Assembly: GCA_028283655.1 (NCBI GenBank)
Contig: JAPWKE010000003.1
Coordinates: forward strand, 1,612,001 to 1,676,000
Length of the DNA stretch: 64,000 nucleotides
Direction: 5' to 3'
Origin: Acidobacteriaceae bacterium
GTDB taxonomy: Bacteria; Acidobacteriota; Terriglobia; Terriglobales; Acidobacteriaceae
In this document: positions 40,647 through 46,228 of the stretch, piece by piece
How positions within the stretch are numbered: position 1 is the first letter of the stretch
How the letters are laid out: each line of letters begins with the position of its first letter
The notes under the pieces: model-generated
Databases searched by the model: none
What the model was told of the DNA's origin: nothing
Seen by the model: the letters and a program-made list of their open reading frames with translations, nothing else
Program-made: the position numbers and the translations under genes

Positions 40647-42119
40647 TTGCTTTCCGTCGCGCTTTTTCTGCTTGTCTTCCTCGGAATGATACCGGCACTG
40701 GCGTCATTTGCTCAGCTTCTGCTGGTAGGTCTTCATGGAAGCCGAAACCACTACAAACTCTGCCGTGACTACACGCCACGGATCGCTTTTGTACTGCCTG
40801 CGTGGAACGAAGGCGATGTGATCCGCTCAGGGATCGACTCGCTGATGGATCTCGATTATCCGCAGGGCCACTGGCGAATTTATGTAGTGGACGATGCGAG
40901 CACGGACGATACACCGCTCATCGCCAAAGAGAAGATGGCCCAGTATCCCGGTACGGTGTTTCACCTGCGCCGCGATAAGGGTGGCCAAGGCAAGTCGCAC
41001 ACGCTGAATCATGGACTGAAGACAATCCTGGCGGATGACTGGGCCGAGGCGGTGATGATCATGGACGCGGATGTGCTGTTTGAGCGCCAGGCGTTGCGGC
41101 GCATGACACGACATCTGGCTGATCCGGAAGTGGGCGCGGTCACGGCGTACATCAAGGAAGGCAGCTTCCCGAACAACGTTGTGACGCGGTTCATTACGTT
41201 TGAGTATGTGACAGCGCAGGCGGCGGCCCGGCGGGCACAAAATGTCGTCGGTGTGATGGCTTGCCTGGCGGGGGGCGCCCAGTTGCATAGCCGGGAAAAC
41301 CTGGAAGCCCTTGGCGGAGTGATTGATACGAGTTCGCTCGCTGAAGATACATTTACAACGCTAAAGACCCAGCTACAGGGCAAACGTGTGGTGTTTGAAG
41401 GCAATGCCGTGGTGTGGGCCGAAGAGCCGGGAACGCTGACAGCACTATGGAAGCAGCGACTGCGCTGGGCTCGCGGGAACCTGCAACTGACAGTCGCCTT
41501 CCGCCACCTTTGGTTTCGCCGTTCGCAGCATTCGAAGCTGGGGAGTGTGCCCTTTGGCATCCTCTGGTTCAGCATCGTGTTCATGCCGATCTTTATGATC
41601 CTGGCTTCTGCAGGATTGATTGGGATGTACGCCTTCCATCGCGAGATTGCGTGGTCGAGCTTCAGCACTCTGTGGGGAACGCTGGTGAGCGTTTACCTCT
41701 TCGAAACGCTGTTCTCTTATGCCATCGACCCGGCCACGGCAAAGCGCGCGTGGTTCGAAGGGTTCGTCTTTCCGGGGCTGATCTCGCTTGCCATCATGGC
41801 GTTGTTTTTCCTGCCGCACTCGATGGTGAGGTTTCTGGATACGCCCGCCTCGGCAAGCGGGTATGCGTGGTCGTGGCACGTTATTCTGACCCTGCTCATC
41901 TATAGCTGGGCCTCGCTGAGCATGTTGGCGGCATGGGGAATATACCGGCTGGAAAAAGCAGGGGCCCCAAAGTGGCTATGCAATACTCTGCTGTTGCTGG
42001 TGGGCTACGGCCCGCAGCTTTGCGCGATTGGCTTTGCAGCCCTGGTGGCTTACTGTCGAGGGACGAAATCGGAATGGGACAAGACAATCAAATCCGGCAA
42101 GGTGAGAATTCTTCGATGA
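40647..42119 (+). CDS. Processive-type GT2 glycosyltransferase (YaiP/PgaC-like polysaccharide synthase)
   Basis: 490 residues from a TTG at 40647 with GGGGA seven bases upstream; an ATG at 40578 is in frame but gives an arginine-rich leader with no SD. One N-terminal membrane segment, a GT-A domain with FVLPAWNEGDV, VVDDASTDDT, DKGGQGKSHTLNHGL, MDADVLF (metal-binding DxD), SLAEDTFTT (catalytic base) and QRLRWARGNL (Q/RxxRW, acceptor site of processive synthases), then four or five C-terminal membrane segments. This set is typical of cellulose, hyaluronan and PNAG synthases and of E. coli YaiP. It begins the envelope-glycan locus described in the findings. Confidence 0.88.
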   Translation: MLSVALFLLVFLGMIPALASFAQLLLVGLHGSRNHYKLCRDYTPRIAFVLPAWNEGDVIRSGIDSLMDLDYPQGHWRIYVVDDASTDDTPLIAKEKMAQYPGTVFHLRRDKGGQGKSHTLNHGLKTILADDWAEAVMIMDADVLFERQALRRMTRHLADPEVGAVTAYIKEGSFPNNVVTRFITFEYVTAQAAARRAQNVVGVMACLAGGAQLHSRENLEALGGVIDTSSLAEDTFTTLKTQLQGKRVVFEGNAVVWAEEPGTLTALWKQRLRWARGNLQLTVAFRHLWFRRSQHSKLGSVPFGILWFSIVFMPIFMILASAGLIGMYAFHREIAWSSFSTLWGTLVSVYLFETLFSYAIDPATAKRAWFEGFVFPGLISLAIMALFFLPHSMVRFLDTPASASGYAWSWHVILTLLIYSWASLSMLAAWGIYRLEKAGAPKWLCNTLLLLVGYGPQLCAIGFAALVAYCRGTKSEWDKTIKSGKVRILR

Positions 42120-42253
42120 AGCCTGCATCCGATTTCGAAGTCATGCTGAAGGCGGACCAAAAGGTAGAGCGGCGGTTGTTCTGGGCAGAGCTTCTTGTGA
42201 TTGCGATCGTCCTTGTTGCGCTCGGTGTGCGTTTCTGGCTGCTACGAGGCTAA
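42116..42253 (+). CDS. 45-residue single-span membrane protein coupled to the synthase
   Basis: ATG 42116 overlaps the synthase stop (ATGA). The protein has a charged N-terminus (MKPASDFEVMLKADQKVERR) and one membrane helix (LFWAELLVIAIVLVALGVRFWLL). Its size, topology and coupling recall small partners of processive synthases such as PgaD, but there is no sequence similarity I can claim. It may stabilise the synthase or bind the nucleotide second messenger. Confidence 0.7.
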   Translation: MKPASDFEVMLKADQKVERRLFWAELLVIAIVLVALGVRFWLLRG

Positions 42254-42299
42254 GCCGGACAACGCAGAGCGCAACGCAAACTGACTTCTTGGATTGACT

Positions 42300-43268
42300 A
42301 TGCGGATTTTGATAACAGGTGCAGGCGGCCCTTCTGCCATCAGTGTTTGGAAGAGCCTGGGTACCAGCAATGAACTGCACATGGCTGATATGGATGTGTG
42401 CGCGGCGGGCCTCTACCTGGTGCCACACGCGCAACGGTTGCTGGTGCCCCGCGGAGATGATCCCCGACTGATAAGCGTGCTACTCGCTGAGTGCGAGGCG
42501 CGCGGGATTGAGCTGCTACTTCCAACCGTGGATTCGGAGTTGGTTCCGGTCGCGCTGGCCCGCGCGGAGTTTGCTGCGATTGGAGTCAAGCTGGCACTGC
42601 CTTCTGCAGAGGCCTTAATGCTGTGCCGCGACAAACATGCACTGCTGACAGCACTGGCAACAGAGGTCCCAGTGCCTGAGTCCGTCGTACTGGATGCGAA
42701 CACGGTGACTTCCCTGCTTACGTTTCCTCGCTTTGCGAAGCCACGCGCGAGTGCTGGTTCGCGTGGAACGGTTGAGGTAAAAAACGCGGAAGAGCTCGAG
42801 GCGTTGCCGAAGGATGGAAGCTATCTGCTGCAGGAGTTGTTGCAAGGCGCAGAGTATTCGGTGGATGTTTATACGCGCGGCGATGGGGTAGCGATTGCGG
42901 CGGTTCCGCGAGAACGCATGAAGATCGATTCGGGGATAGCCATTACCGCGCGCACGGTACATCTGCCGGAGGCAAGCGACATTGCGATTCGCGCAGCACG
43001 GGCAGCGGGCGTACTGTACATGGCCAATGTTCAGCTGAAACGCAATAGCGTGGGCGAGTTGAAGCTGCTGGAGATCAACCCACGCTTTCCGGGGACACTG
43101 CCACTAACGGCGCGCGCGGGGGTTGATATTCCGGCGTTGATGCTTGCAGAGATTGCAGGCGAAGCCATGCCTGCAGAGTTGCTGCCGTTTGAAGAGGTGG
43201 CTGTCGCTCGGTACTGGACCGAGGAGTACTTCCACCCCCAAGAGATGGACCGCCTTTGCCGCCCGTAA
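42300..43268 (+). CDS. ATP-grasp domain protein (carbamoyl-phosphate-synthase-like)
   Basis: 322 residues. N-terminal pre-ATP-grasp Rossmann-like domain (MRILITGAGGPSAISVWKSLG), then ATP-grasp core with PRFAKPRASAGSRGTVEV (lysine and glycine-rich loop), YLLQELLQGAEYSVDVYT and LKLLEINPRFPGT (metal-binding Glu/Asn). These enzymes join a carboxylate to an amine or thiol using ATP. The substrate is not evident; an amino-acid or peptide-like decoration of the glycan or its precursor is one possibility. The next gene overlaps its end by 13 bases. A TTG at 42294 is an alternative start. Confidence 0.85.
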   Translation: MRILITGAGGPSAISVWKSLGTSNELHMADMDVCAAGLYLVPHAQRLLVPRGDDPRLISVLLAECEARGIELLLPTVDSELVPVALARAEFAAIGVKLALPSAEALMLCRDKHALLTALATEVPVPESVVLDANTVTSLLTFPRFAKPRASAGSRGTVEVKNAEELEALPKDGSYLLQELLQGAEYSVDVYTRGDGVAIAAVPRERMKIDSGIAITARTVHLPEASDIAIRAARAAGVLYMANVQLKRNSVGELKLLEINPRFPGTLPLTARAGVDIPALMLAEIAGEAMPAELLPFEEVAVARYWTEEYFHPQEMDRLCRP

Positions 43269-43864
43269 CGACATGGTTGATCCGGCATGGAGAAAGCCTT
43301 GCGAACGCGGGCCACCCAACCGTGGGGAACGCCGAAGTGGGCCTGACGGAGTTAGGGTTGCAGCAGTCTCAGGATGTGGCCGCGCAGATGATGGTGAGGC
43401 CTGACCGGCTGGTCGTGTCTCCGTTCTTACGTGCGCAGGCGATGGCTGCAGAGATTGAAGAGCGCTGGCTGGGGCTGCGGCGAGAGGTTTTGCCGATCCA
43501 GGAGCTGACCTATCTAAGCCCTGCTCGATGCAACGGCACAACGCACGAGACGCGGCAGGTGATGGTACGAAGCTACTGGGAGCGTTGCGACCCTGACTAT
43601 AAAGATGGTGAAGACGCAGAGTCTTTCACCGCCTTTATGGCTCGTCTTCATAGCTTTCATGAGGAGTTGCAGAGAGAAGACGTTCCGTTTTTCGTTGCGG
43701 TGGGCCATGGGCAGTTTTTCAGCGCGTACCTCTTTGCGTTGAACAACAGCTTCATCGCAAGCCCGGAACAGATGAAGGCTTATCGGCTTGCTGAAACAGC
43801 CAATCCTTTGCGCAATGGCGAGATACTCAGGCTCGCATCCGGGCGGCTGGTCGGCGAACGCTAG
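43256..43864 (+). CDS. Histidine phosphatase family protein of the glycan locus
   Basis: 202 residues from a TTG start inside the end of the ATP-grasp gene. The motif TTWLIRHGESLANAG gives the catalytic histidine, VVSPFLRAQAMA the second arginine and VAVGHGQFFSAYL the C-terminal histidine. It is related to the phosphatase at 475-1071 only at family level. Likely removes phosphate from a small or lipid-linked intermediate. Its TAG stop shares bases with the stop of the convergent deacetylase gene (CTAG at 43861-43864). Confidence 0.85.
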   Translation: MPPVTTWLIRHGESLANAGHPTVGNAEVGLTELGLQQSQDVAAQMMVRPDRLVVSPFLRAQAMAAEIEERWLGLRREVLPIQELTYLSPARCNGTTHETRQVMVRSYWERCDPDYKDGEDAESFTAFMARLHSFHEELQREDVPFFVAVGHGQFFSAYLFALNNSFIASPEQMKAYRLAETANPLRNGEILRLASGRLVGER

Positions 43865-44472
43865 TCGAACTGGCGCATGATGAGCATGGGTTCCACGAGC
43901 CCGTAGCCTGCGTAACGGCCCCAATAGCGTGCAGTGGCAAGCATGAGGTCGGGTGCGAGGTTGTTGCGGCGCGACGTCTGGCTTTCGTAGGCTGCAATCA
44001 GCTCGAGCTTGCTTTCCATAAATGCGGAGATGTCGACGAAGTAGTTCGGACGAAAGTCCACAGTAGAAGACGGCGACTGGTAGCAGTAGAAGTTCTTCAC
44101 GTGACGCGCGGCGACCATCGCGGCGTGATGGGTGGCACGGTGATCCTGATGCGTATCGTGGCAGGTGTGCGTATAGATGTGCGTAGGGTGGAAGGCCTTG
44201 ATGGCATCTTCAATCAAGGTGATGGTTTCAACGCCTTCAGAGATCTGCCCGTCATTCAATTCGCCAAAGACCAACTGTGCGCCAAGAAGTTCAGCAACGC
44301 GATGGCTTTCCTGGGAGCGGCGCTCGATGTCTCCACCGATGGCTCCACGGGTAAGCGTGAGAATCATGATGGCCTCCCCCTGGGCGGCGTGGCGAGCGAG
44401 CGCGCCGCCGCAACCGATCTCTACATCGTCGGGATGCGCCCCGATGGCCAGAATGAATTTGCGAGTTGCCAT
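43861..44472 (-). CDS. PIG-L/LmbE family deacetylase (YaiS-like)
   Basis: 203 residues. Zinc-binding motifs AIGAHPDDVEIGCGG (His, Asp) and CHDTHQDHRATHHAAM (His) are intact, and the fold matches GlcNAc deacetylases such as MshB, BshB and PIG-L. N-deacetylation of a GlcNAc-type sugar is the expected reaction. The ATG at 44472 (MATRKFILAIGAHPDD) is preferred; one at 44490 is possible. It is co-oriented with the outer-membrane TPR/barrel gene 63 bases upstream and convergent with the synthase-to-phosphatase genes. Confidence 0.9.
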   Translation of the reverse strand: MATRKFILAIGAHPDDVEIGCGGALARHAAQGEAIMILTLTRGAIGGDIERRSQESHRVAELLGAQLVFGELNDGQISEGVETITLIEDAIKAFHPTHIYTHTCHDTHQDHRATHHAAMVAARHVKNFYCYQSPSSTVDFRPNYFVDISAFMESKLELIAAYESQTSRRNNLAPDLMLATARYWGRYAGYGLVEPMLIMRQFD

Positions 44473-44535
44473 AGTGCCTGCGGCTAACATTCTTCGTGTT
44501 CTCTTCCAGATCGAGTGCAGCGTGCGGACCTGGTA

Positions 44536-45870
44536 CTACCAGTTGAAGCGGAGGCCAACGGTGGCCTGCGTGAGACTGCTGGTTGTGACGTGGTCGACCA
44601 TGCCCAGCAGCGCGGTGTGGCGCGTGAGTGGGACGGTCGCACGGGCGTGAATATCGAAGGCCGAAACGGTAGGGTTATAGCCCGTGCCGATGTTGAGGAA
44701 GAGGCGTCCAGGTCCCTGGCGGTTGAGGTCCGCGACGAAGGCGGCAGAGTTGCTGAACTGGTTCTGCGGACCGTGGCTGATTTTGGCTTCGTCGAAGTAA
44801 CCAGTGCCGACAAGCTGCCAGCTATGTCCGAGGGGAGCGATCAGGCCGCCCTGCAGAAGCAGGTTGTTCCATTGCGGAGCACCAAATGCGCCGCGTGCCC
44901 CAGCGAACCACTGAACGCCTTTACCGATGTAGTTGCCCACGTTGGCAGCGAGCCAGTGTTCGTCGGGAAGGTTGAGATGGTGGCGGTAGTCGTAGGTCAG
45001 TGAAGCGTTCACACCATCTGGCACACGGTAAAAGTAGCCAAGACGAACATTGTCTGTGGGCAGCTGCGTTGTCTGCGTTATCAGTGTCACGGGCAGTTCG
45101 CTGCTGTTATAGGTATTGCCGACCTCGATGGTGTTCAAGGCGTTCAAGTACATCTGCACATCAACGCCGCCGAGGCCTGCCGTGCCAGAAGAACTATGTA
45201 CCGCTCCGCCGACAAGATCGAGTTGATAGCGCCAGGACTGATCAAGATGCTTGAGGCCAGCCTTTGCTTCCAGATTGTCAGGTTGAGCGGCGAGCGCGGC
45301 GTGGAAACCGGTGCGCGCTGAGGCGGTGCGCCTGTTGCTAAGAGCGATCCAAGCCATGCCGTTGAGGGCATCGGCGTCGGCAGGGCTTTGCTGCAAAAAC
45401 TTCTGGTAAATACCACGAGCTTCAGAGAAGCGGTACTCTGCCCGGTCGGCGCGGGCGAGCCCCAACAACGCAGGCCGGGAGTGCTCGTCGTGCGTCAGAA
45501 CCTGCTTGTAGAGGCTGCGAGCAGCCTGTGGACGTCCCTTCCGCTCTTCGGTAACGGCGAGTTCCAGCGTGGGAGCAGCTAGCTCCGGGGCAATGCTGTG
45601 AGCGCTTTCGAGCAAAACGATGGCTTCGTCCAGATGTCCCTGATCGCGGAGGATAACGCCCTGCAAAAGAGGAATTCGATAGTCCGTGGCGGCAAGATCC
45701 CGACAGTTCGCGAGAAGCGTTTCGATGGCGCTGTAAGACCACGACGGTTGCGCGTAGAGCTGCTGCGCCTCCTCCAGATGACAAGGAGTCTGGGCGGCCG
45801 CGGGAATCGTTATTCCCACAGCGAGGATTGCGCTAAGGGGCAAAAAGAAACGCTTCGGAGAGATCAGCAT
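44536..45870 (-). CDS. TPR and YaiO-type outer-membrane beta-barrel protein
   Basis: 444 residues. Signal peptide (FFLPLSAILAVGITIPAAAQ), then TPR repeats over about residues 30-210 (LLQGVILRDQGHLDEAIVLLESAHSIAP; LELAVTEERKGRPQAARSLYKQVL; MAWIALSNRRTASARTGFHAAL), and a C-terminal barrel of about 235 residues with alternating strands ending ATVGLRFNW. TPR plus outer-membrane barrel is the layout of exopolysaccharide exporters such as PgaA and of YaiO proteins. It would carry the product of the GT2 synthase across the outer membrane or scaffold the periplasmic enzymes. Confidence 0.85.
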   Translation of the reverse strand: MLISPKRFFLPLSAILAVGITIPAAAQTPCHLEEAQQLYAQPSWSYSAIETLLANCRDLAATDYRIPLLQGVILRDQGHLDEAIVLLESAHSIAPELAAPTLELAVTEERKGRPQAARSLYKQVLTHDEHSRPALLGLARADRAEYRFSEARGIYQKFLQQSPADADALNGMAWIALSNRRTASARTGFHAALAAQPDNLEAKAGLKHLDQSWRYQLDLVGGAVHSSSGTAGLGGVDVQMYLNALNTIEVGNTYNSSELPVTLITQTTQLPTDNVRLGYFYRVPDGVNASLTYDYRHHLNLPDEHWLAANVGNYIGKGVQWFAGARGAFGAPQWNNLLLQGGLIAPLGHSWQLVGTGYFDEAKISHGPQNQFSNSAAFVADLNRQGPGRLFLNIGTGYNPTVSAFDIHARATVPLTRHTALLGMVDHVTTSSLTQATVGLRFNW

Positions 45871-45971: not shown

Positions 45972-46036
45972 AATTTATTAGAGGAGCCTAAGAAATAGTA
46001 CTGTGGCGTAGCTGATTTGCCTACCACTAACAATAG

Positions 46037-46078
46037 ATACCCCGATAAATGTGCGAAAACGCACGTTTATCGGGGTAT
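46037..46078. repeat. Long intergenic hairpin downstream of kdpC
   Basis: A 19-bp stem with one G-U pair: ATACCCCGATAAATGTGCG (46037-46055), loop AAAA, complement 46060-46078. No U-run follows on either strand. The gap 45871-46228 contains this hairpin, the leader hairpins of the neighbouring gene and nothing else I can support. Confidence 0.7.
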
Positions 46079-46228
46079 GGTGGGTGTTTCTTCTGCGTGG
46101 CCGCGAAGCATTGACACTGAAAAAGATGGAAGCCCGGACGCAAGGTCCTAACGATCTATCGCCCGATGAAGAAGCTTCGTTTGTCGTGATTCCATCTCGA
46201 TGGGCCCAAGAAGCAAAGGGGGTGTCGT

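Follow-up and report, generated by a model that had tools for sequence, protein, structure and literature searches.

In a window of 64,000 nucleotides from an Acidobacteriaceae bacterium (by the window we mean this whole stretch of contig JAPWKE010000003.1), we analyzed a locus of six genes encoding a GT2 synthase, a 45-residue membrane protein, an ATP-grasp ligase, a histidine phosphatase, a PIG-L deacetylase and a protein that joins tetratricopeptide repeats (TPR) to a barrel-like domain. With a probability of roughly one half, we interpret it as an accessory synthase-type exopolysaccharide locus with deacetylation by PIG-L in the cytoplasm, re-amidation by the ATP-grasp enzyme and export through the TPR-barrel protein. 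The gene families are clear, their catalytic motifs are intact, and the combination of GT2, PIG-L and ATP-grasp recurs at two other places, L207 and L257. The general idea of a preliminary description of the locus, an extended envelope-glycan export system, thus gained independent support from these two places, although its YaiO and YaiP labels and its substitution of PIG-L for PgaB did not stand.

The six open reading frames (ORFs) lie where they had been placed (40647-45870) and in the two convergent groups described, four genes on the forward and two on the reverse strand, the stop codons of the phosphatase and PIG-L genes overlapping in a single CTAG. In codon statistics referenced to 12 chosen genes of the window, the own frame was the top-scoring frame for all six genes, with the lowest score for the phosphatase (0.10). 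The gene of the 45-residue protein is coding-like, as its score of 0.31 per codon equals that of real genes and was reached by none of 318 out-of-frame segments of 45 codons. Its product has a single hydrophobic segment (residues 25-43); it matched no NCBIfam or Pfam family and no PgaD homologue was detected, in searches for which the ORF is too short to give a firm negative. For the synthase, TTG 40647 is a better start than ATG 40578 because the 69-base (23-codon) extension from the latter scores as non-coding and a GGGGA lies 7 bases upstream of the TTG.

Four of the proteins have clear Pfam matches: the synthase to GT2 (PF13641, 97.8 bits), the ligase to ATP-grasp (PF15632, 89.4 bits), the phosphatase to PF00300 (63.4 bits) and the deacetylase to PIG-L (PF02585, 89.1 bits). 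The synthase carries DDAS, DAD, AED and QRLRW, which we take to be the D, D, D, QxxRW set of processive synthases, and we take AHPDD and HQDH in the PIG-L protein, KP and EINPR in the ATP-grasp enzyme and RHG and GHG in the phosphatase to be catalytic as well. By its motif set and its C-terminal membrane segments the GT2 qualifies as a processive synthase, and its matches in the PDB include hyaluronan and cellulose synthases. The PIG-L protein would act in the cytoplasm, since its sequence has neither a signal nor a membrane segment.

The sixth protein combines TPR with a C-terminal domain that belongs to no known family. Its C-terminal 234 residues end in LRFNW and contain 10 amphipathic segments, against a mean of 6.3 in shuffled sequences (14 of 300 shuffles reach 10), in a test that is weak, since L110 and L112, two of the eight genuine YaiO barrels tried, fail to stand out in it. 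A C-terminal barrel is plausible on these features but not proven. Searched up to E 10, this part of the protein matched no NCBIfam family and gave one chance-level Pfam match (E 0.11), and an AlphaFold2 model of the protein built without an alignment was uninformative (pLDDT, the predicted local distance difference test score, 38). The protein was matched in 46 of 61 genomes at E<=0.001, all listed matches other than itself falling within residues 6-242, which is essentially the TPR part; searches of plasmids at E<=1e-5 gave no relative of it or of its counterpart in L207. Elsewhere the window contains a barrel gene of the porin type (PF07642), and the host is therefore taken to have an outer membrane.

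Several of these families recurred together at two places. In L207, from another family of the same phylum, genes for an ATP-grasp enzyme, a TPR-barrel-like protein, a PIG-L fusion protein and a GT2 lie on one strand; in L257, on an Arthrobacter plasmid, PIG-L, ATP-grasp and GT2 occupy consecutive frames and the fourth gene encodes an extracytoplasmic domain. The proposal that synthase, PIG-L, TPR-barrel protein and ATP-grasp enzyme form one set was supported, with four of the six families in a single run in L207 and three in L257. The proteins of the window scored 126-134 bits (GT2), 130-132 bits (PIG-L) and 83-85 bits (ATP-grasp) against those of L207, and 107, 120 and 47-50 bits, respectively, against those of L257. 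Between L207 and L257 the scores were 275 bits (GT2), 167 bits (ATP-grasp) and 167 bits (PIG-L), and the extracytoplasmic domain, fused to the GT2 in L207 and separate in L257, aligned at 144 bits (28% over 298 residues). To judge from these similarities, L207 and L257 look like one system in two phyla. Neither place had a match to the phosphatase or to the 45-residue protein of the window, and the TPR-barrel protein had no match in L257. Arthrobacter has no outer membrane.

The GT2, PIG-L and ATP-grasp trees, computed on chosen subsets of sequences (8 of the 29 GT2 matches L071-L099; 31 ATP-grasp and 29 PIG-L sequences besides those of the window), failed to place the sequences of the window, and the GT2 and ATP-grasp trees had long branches. 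Grouping the window, L207 and L257 into one clade gave p-values in the approximately unbiased test (p-AU) of 0.32 for PIG-L and 0.53 for ATP-grasp, so that orthology was neither rejected nor demonstrated, and the ATP-grasp enzyme of the window did not clearly belong to the clade of the other two. On present similarities, the locus of the window would be a looser variant of the L207/L257 system, which shares PIG-L, ATP-grasp and a membrane GT2 with it and, in L207, the TPR and barrel-like protein, rather than a proven member.

The association of PIG-L with ATP-grasp extends beyond these loci. We collected 55 places in the phylum, other than the window, with relatives of the ATP-grasp gene (about 10 kb each, some shorter at contig ends, the minimum being 3.1 kb). 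PIG-L lay within about 5 kb in four of them, L207 being one, against roughly 0.5 expected, an order of magnitude obtained from 103-107 PIG-L matches in 31 genomes of a rough size of 3.8 Mb and mixing two ways of detection. Seen from the PIG-L side, ATP-grasp genes were also found near PIG-L in L252 and L244. In a glycan locus of Halobaculum (L150) and a plasmid cluster of Virgibacillus (L259), PIG-L stands immediately ahead of ATP-grasp; the ATP-grasp gene of L259 is known by annotation and did not match that of the window at E<=1e-3. The single match in the genome_contigs collection, a sequence of Cellvibrio (L031, Pseudomonadota), was dropped as a relative, being a D-Ala-D-Ala ligase in a division and cell-wall cluster.

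Proteins of the PIG-L family are zinc-dependent enzymes that de-N-acetylate amino sugars, and ATP-grasp carboxylate-amine ligases form amides and need an amine. We propose an exchange of amides because PIG-L would free an amine, ATP-grasp requires one and the pairing of the two genes recurs. In this proposal, the substrate, the order of steps, the exchange of amides, the export and the roles of the phosphatase and of the 45-residue protein are inferred. The membrane GT2, with the 45-residue protein as partner, would polymerize a sugar of the N-acetylhexosamine type and extrude the polymer. At the inner face of the membrane, the PIG-L protein would de-N-acetylate either a precursor or the growing chain, and the ATP-grasp enzyme would then couple a carboxylate, an amino acid or a similar compound, to the freed amine at the expense of ATP. 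The phosphatase may dephosphorylate an intermediate or a by-product, and export of the polymer would fall to the TPR part in the periplasm and the barrel in the outer membrane.

A broader interpretation, which we put forward tentatively as it is distinctly less likely than our general reading, would make the window, L207 and L257 members of one previously undescribed glycan system that spans phyla. In it, PIG-L would take N-acetyl groups off the polymer or its precursor in the cytoplasm, an ATP-grasp enzyme would put other acyl or aminoacyl groups in their place, and a TPR-barrel exporter would be present only where there is an outer membrane. Hydropathy alone indicates that the fusion protein of L207 apparently has its PIG-L domain in the cytoplasm and its TPR in the periplasm, in line with the lack of a signal in the PIG-L protein of the window. 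In such a cross-phylum system, the fusion would apparently tie a cytoplasmic deacetylase to a periplasmic TPR scaffold.

The locus had been compared with the pgaABCD genes for poly-N-acetylglucosamine (PNAG), which likewise combine a PgaC-type GT2, a small membrane partner, a deacetylase and a TPR protein with a barrel. The corresponding scores were far under the cut-offs: the top NCBIfam model of the GT2 was PgaC_IcaA (128.2 bits, equivalog cut-off 422.3) and the TPR part matched the PgaA model at 40 bits (equivalog cut-off 366.65). PgaB belongs to another deacetylase family than PIG-L, and to our knowledge the pga system has no ATP-grasp enzyme. PIG-L in the place of PgaB is not a like-for-like replacement, since the former has no signal and would be cytoplasmic whereas PgaB is periplasmic (available excerpts of PMC5933820). 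As far as the available excerpts go, PgaA and PgaB take part in the secretion of PNAG (PMC9384988, PMC5933820), and both PNAG and Pel are deacetylated in the periplasm (PMC5933820, PMC12022489). The NfrBA-YbcH system of Escherichia coli is a known precedent and resembles the window in that it has a GT2 synthase and a TPR-containing outer-membrane barrel (NfrB/NfrA), with a secreted polymer reported, and differs from it in that the excerpt available of the paper describing it mentions neither PIG-L nor ATP-grasp (PMC8669469). By analogy, a membrane GT2 with processive motifs beside a TPR-barrel protein follows the logic of PNAG and Nfr secretion.

The likeliest of the alternatives, which we still consider unlikely, is a synthase locus of the Pga or Nfr kind, whose PIG-L protein only deacetylates a PNAG-like polymer, the ATP-grasp enzyme and the phosphatase belonging to another pathway within the operon. 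It would explain why PgaC_IcaA is the top model of the GT2 and PgaA a match of the TPR part, and it agrees with the finding that, among the sequences compared, the GT2 scores highest (up to 150 bits) with GT2 domains that form part of long fusions, and with the absence of ATP-grasp from the E. coli yai runs examined. It does not account for the recurrence of ATP-grasp with PIG-L and GT2 in L207 and L257 and beside PIG-L in L150 and L259.

As proposed earlier, yaiO, yaiP and yaiS are neighbors in E. coli K-12, where a broken yaiX lies with them, and in three records of the plasmid collection intact copies were ordered PIG-L, GT2, acetyltransferase, YaiO. Of the three family labels derived from this comparison, that of a YaiS-like PIG-L was confirmed (39% identity over 150 residues, 94 bits). 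The GT2 is distant from YaiP (23% identity over 221 residues) and was not placed by the tree, and the barrel had no significant blastp similarity to YaiO and did not match TIGR04390 or PF19413; TIGR04390 had no match at E<=0.001 in the whole genome of the window. Against a home-made profile built from the YaiO of E. coli and seven other proteins of the family, with the YaiO parts taken from family-match coordinates, the barrel scored 8.7 bits whereas left-out true members scored 18-156, and hhalign gave a local match of 33 columns at 10% probability. We thus rejected membership of the YaiO family, on family models and profile alike, although a very distant kinship may exist. E. coli YaiO (257 residues) appears too short to hold both TPR and a barrel.

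The yai loci and the window share a PIG-L of the YaiS kind, a membrane GT2 and an outer-membrane barrel; they differ in the acetyltransferase (YaiX), which has no counterpart among the six genes, and in the ATP-grasp and phosphatase genes, which are not annotated in the yai runs examined. A YaiO-domain protein above the cut-off was present in 7 of 150 Pseudomonadota genomes, and each of the seven had a GT2 gene in the same orientation no more than about 1.1 kb away. YaiO-family loci and the window are thus alike in architecture, the GT2 beside a barrel being a recurring pair. In L110 (8149-9198) and L112 (4660-5736), a gene for a HEAT-repeat protein sits between the YaiO-domain gene and the GT2 gene.

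It is quite unlikely that the product is a glycolipid or a small diffusible sugar conjugate, made by a GT2 that transfers one sugar and tailored by PIG-L and ATP-grasp, with the barrel protein an unrelated porin-like neighbor. The PIG-L protein does resemble the bacillithiol deacetylase BshB1, with which it shares its fold (102.7 bits, below the cut-off of 182.5), the PIG-L and ATP-grasp genes of L259 lie near a non-ribosomal peptide synthetase (NRPS) gene, and the GT2 also matches the HpnB, HpnI and MftF models, all under their cut-offs. However, the same genome encodes a separate BshB1 above the cut-off (226.8 bits; the PIG-L protein of the window scored 95 bits in that search), which led us to reject a bacillithiol role. 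The GT2 carries QxxRW and has four hydrophobic segments towards its C-terminus, and this, as well as the presence of a TPR-barrel-like protein in L207, also argues against this explanation.

The closest relatives of the ATP-grasp enzyme seem to act in nonulosonic (sialic-like) acid chemistry, and such a role for the ligase and phosphatase of the window is improbable. Relatives of our reference set in the flanks of the 55 ATP-grasp places were NeuB in 21, HAD hydrolases in 26, GT2 in 6, PIG-L in 4 and PHP in 1. The NeuB and HAD neighbors place relatives of the ligase in sugar clusters, which also speaks for the exopolysaccharide reading. Pfam scans of the neighboring ORFs of the 29 best-scoring loci out of 55 (L033-L061; 24 downstream and 26 upstream ORFs) gave NeuB for 19 of the 26 upstream neighbors, indicating a nonulosonic-acid setting, and by tree path the ATP-grasp enzyme of the window is nearest to these NeuB-linked ones. 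Against such a role, no NeuB was found among the ten proteins of 38.0-48.9 kb and seven other proteins of the window, which is the part of the window and genome that was searched.

Of the two genes considered as added members of the locus, the ATP-grasp gene was supported, as it recurs with PIG-L and GT2, and the phosphatase is the weakest member. The flanks of the 55 ATP-grasp places contained no relative of the phosphatase, and no histidine phosphatase family was among the Pfam matches of the 24 downstream and 26 upstream neighbors. An HAD hydrolase was the next gene in 9 of the 55 places, and the partners of ATP-grasp relatives elsewhere were HAD proteins in Palleronia and Haloarcula and PHP proteins in Halobaculum and Sinorhizobium. 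From these neighborhoods, ATP-grasp relatives seem to go with one phosphoesterase or another: HAD, PHP or, here, a histidine phosphatase. In a Sphingobium plasmid (L260, 4416-5609), a relative of the phosphatase of the window follows a toxin-antitoxin pair of the RelB/YafQ type.

The locus is rare, for its own genome was the sole one with a match to the GT2 among 396 sampled from the phylum (E<=1e-40) and the sole one with a match to the PIG-L protein among 28 from the genus (E<=1e-20). At E<=1e-30 the GT2 was matched in 216 of 300 genomes of the family (best E besides its own locus 3.0e-39), in 5 of 398 Pseudomonadota genomes, in frames of 1,119-1,262 residues, and in two plasmid records, both from Listeria (33% over 59% of the query). 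The listed family matches (L071-L099) lay mostly inside open frames of about 1,100-1,300 residues, many of about 1,180, that is in longer fusion proteins, which are probably deacetylase-synthase fusions. PIG-L genes were found in 60 of 72,556 plasmid records at E<=1e-15, a search through which L257 came to light, those of E. coli plasmids being 30-36% identical. In twelve congeners with cydB, stretches of 1.3-15 kb, one of which ends inside cydB, contained none of the six genes and no kdp at E<=1e-6. Since it is absent from the relatives sampled, the locus is accessory and probably acquired, from a source that was not found in the genomes sampled. The preliminary description had named two observations that would speak against it, independent scattering of the genes among relatives and a barrel of another family unconnected with glycans; the relatives sampled lack the locus rather than carrying its genes scattered, which is in its favor, and the barrel is of another or no known family, which is not. 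That two unrelated convergent groups were acquired separately and are neighbors by chance is also improbable, for although the convergent layout, the relatives without the locus and the lack of a second whole locus would fit, in L207 the same families follow one another in a single direction, as they do, minus the barrel, in L257.

Several observations weigh against the exopolysaccharide interpretation. The two groups are convergent and so do not form one transcript, and no second genome with all six families was found in samples of up to 400 genomes each. The barrel is an orphan of no known family and does not align with that of L207, and the window has no copy of the extracytoplasmic domain that L207 and L257 share (tblastn, best E 0.73). 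The ATP-grasp enzyme scores higher with NeuB-linked ligases, up to 151 bits, than with its counterparts in L207 and L257, and 51 of the 55 ATP-grasp places have no PIG-L. YaiS-like PIG-L genes also sit in other glycan settings: eight of the ten places scoring at least 163 bits with profile A3 are other loci, and their stretches of 3.7-17 kb contained no such GT2 at E<=1e-4. These eight places (163-187 bits) were rejected as further members, none having a GT2 of the kind in the window; two of them, L243 and L244, are O-antigen-like clusters with WbqC. The best plasmid relatives of the phosphatase reach 38%, and the one examined in its context adjoins a toxin-antitoxin pair. In the glycan or NRPS clusters L243 (9035-9721), L244 (5740-6429) and L259 (3646-4395), WbqC-family genes adjoin PIG-L genes or lie close to them.

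The locus is flanked by the cytochrome bd genes cydA and cydB on one side and by kdp potassium-pump genes on the other. A near-perfect, long hairpin, which may mark the boundary of the kdp operon, lies between kdpC and the barrel gene; the stretch 46020-46095 folds at -31.6 kcal/mol (z -6.3, equalled by 0 of 200 shuffles), and the terminator scan did not pick up the hairpin.

Table 1. Genes and other features of the locus and of the related loci L207 and L257.
Feature	Position	Strand	Remarks
GT2 synthase, 490 residues	40647..42119	+	hydrophobic segments: one at the N-terminus, four at the C-terminus; motifs of the processive type
45-residue single-pass membrane protein	42116..42253	+	start overlaps synthase stop; no family match
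ATP-grasp ligase, PylC-like N-terminal domain	42300..43268	+	alternative TTG start 42294
Histidine phosphatase, branch 1, alpha-ribazole-phosphatase-like	43256..43864	+	under all listed NCBIfam cut-offs
PIG-L deacetylase	43861..44490	-	PF02585; no signal or membrane segment
Protein with signal segment, TPR at about residues 45-210 and, at 211-444, a barrel-like C-terminal domain	44536..45870	-	
Stable hairpin	46037..46078	.	between kdpC and the barrel gene
L207 ATP-grasp, 301 residues			
L207 TPR protein with barrel-like C-terminus, 435 residues			barrel not confirmed by any family
L207 fusion protein, 622 residues: signal, TPR, some three membrane helices, PIG-L	L207 9877-11745		
L207 GT2 with extracytoplasmic C-terminal domain, 786 residues			
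L257, Arthrobacter sp. StoSoilB13 plasmid NZ_AP024649.1	L257 4986-8960 (~816,900-820,900)		unannotated PIG-L, ATP-grasp, GT2 and extracytoplasmic-domain genes

In open-licence PubMed Central (PMC) full text we found no description of such a system, including PIG-L with ATP-grasp, nor of PIG-L with exopolysaccharide and tetratricopeptide, nor of ATP-grasp with nonulosonic acid and a deacetylase; YaiO, YaiP and YaiS were found together there only in the contexts of a reduced genome and promoters, YaiO occurred with the outer membrane and glycosyltransferases in a single review, and the papers listed on YaiS and deacetylases were off topic. If our reading of the locus is correct, amino-sugar polymers could gain new N-substituents before export, unlike PNAG and Pel with their periplasmic deacetylation, and the little-studied yaiO, yaiP and yaiS genes of E. 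coli would gain a relative with testable chemistry.

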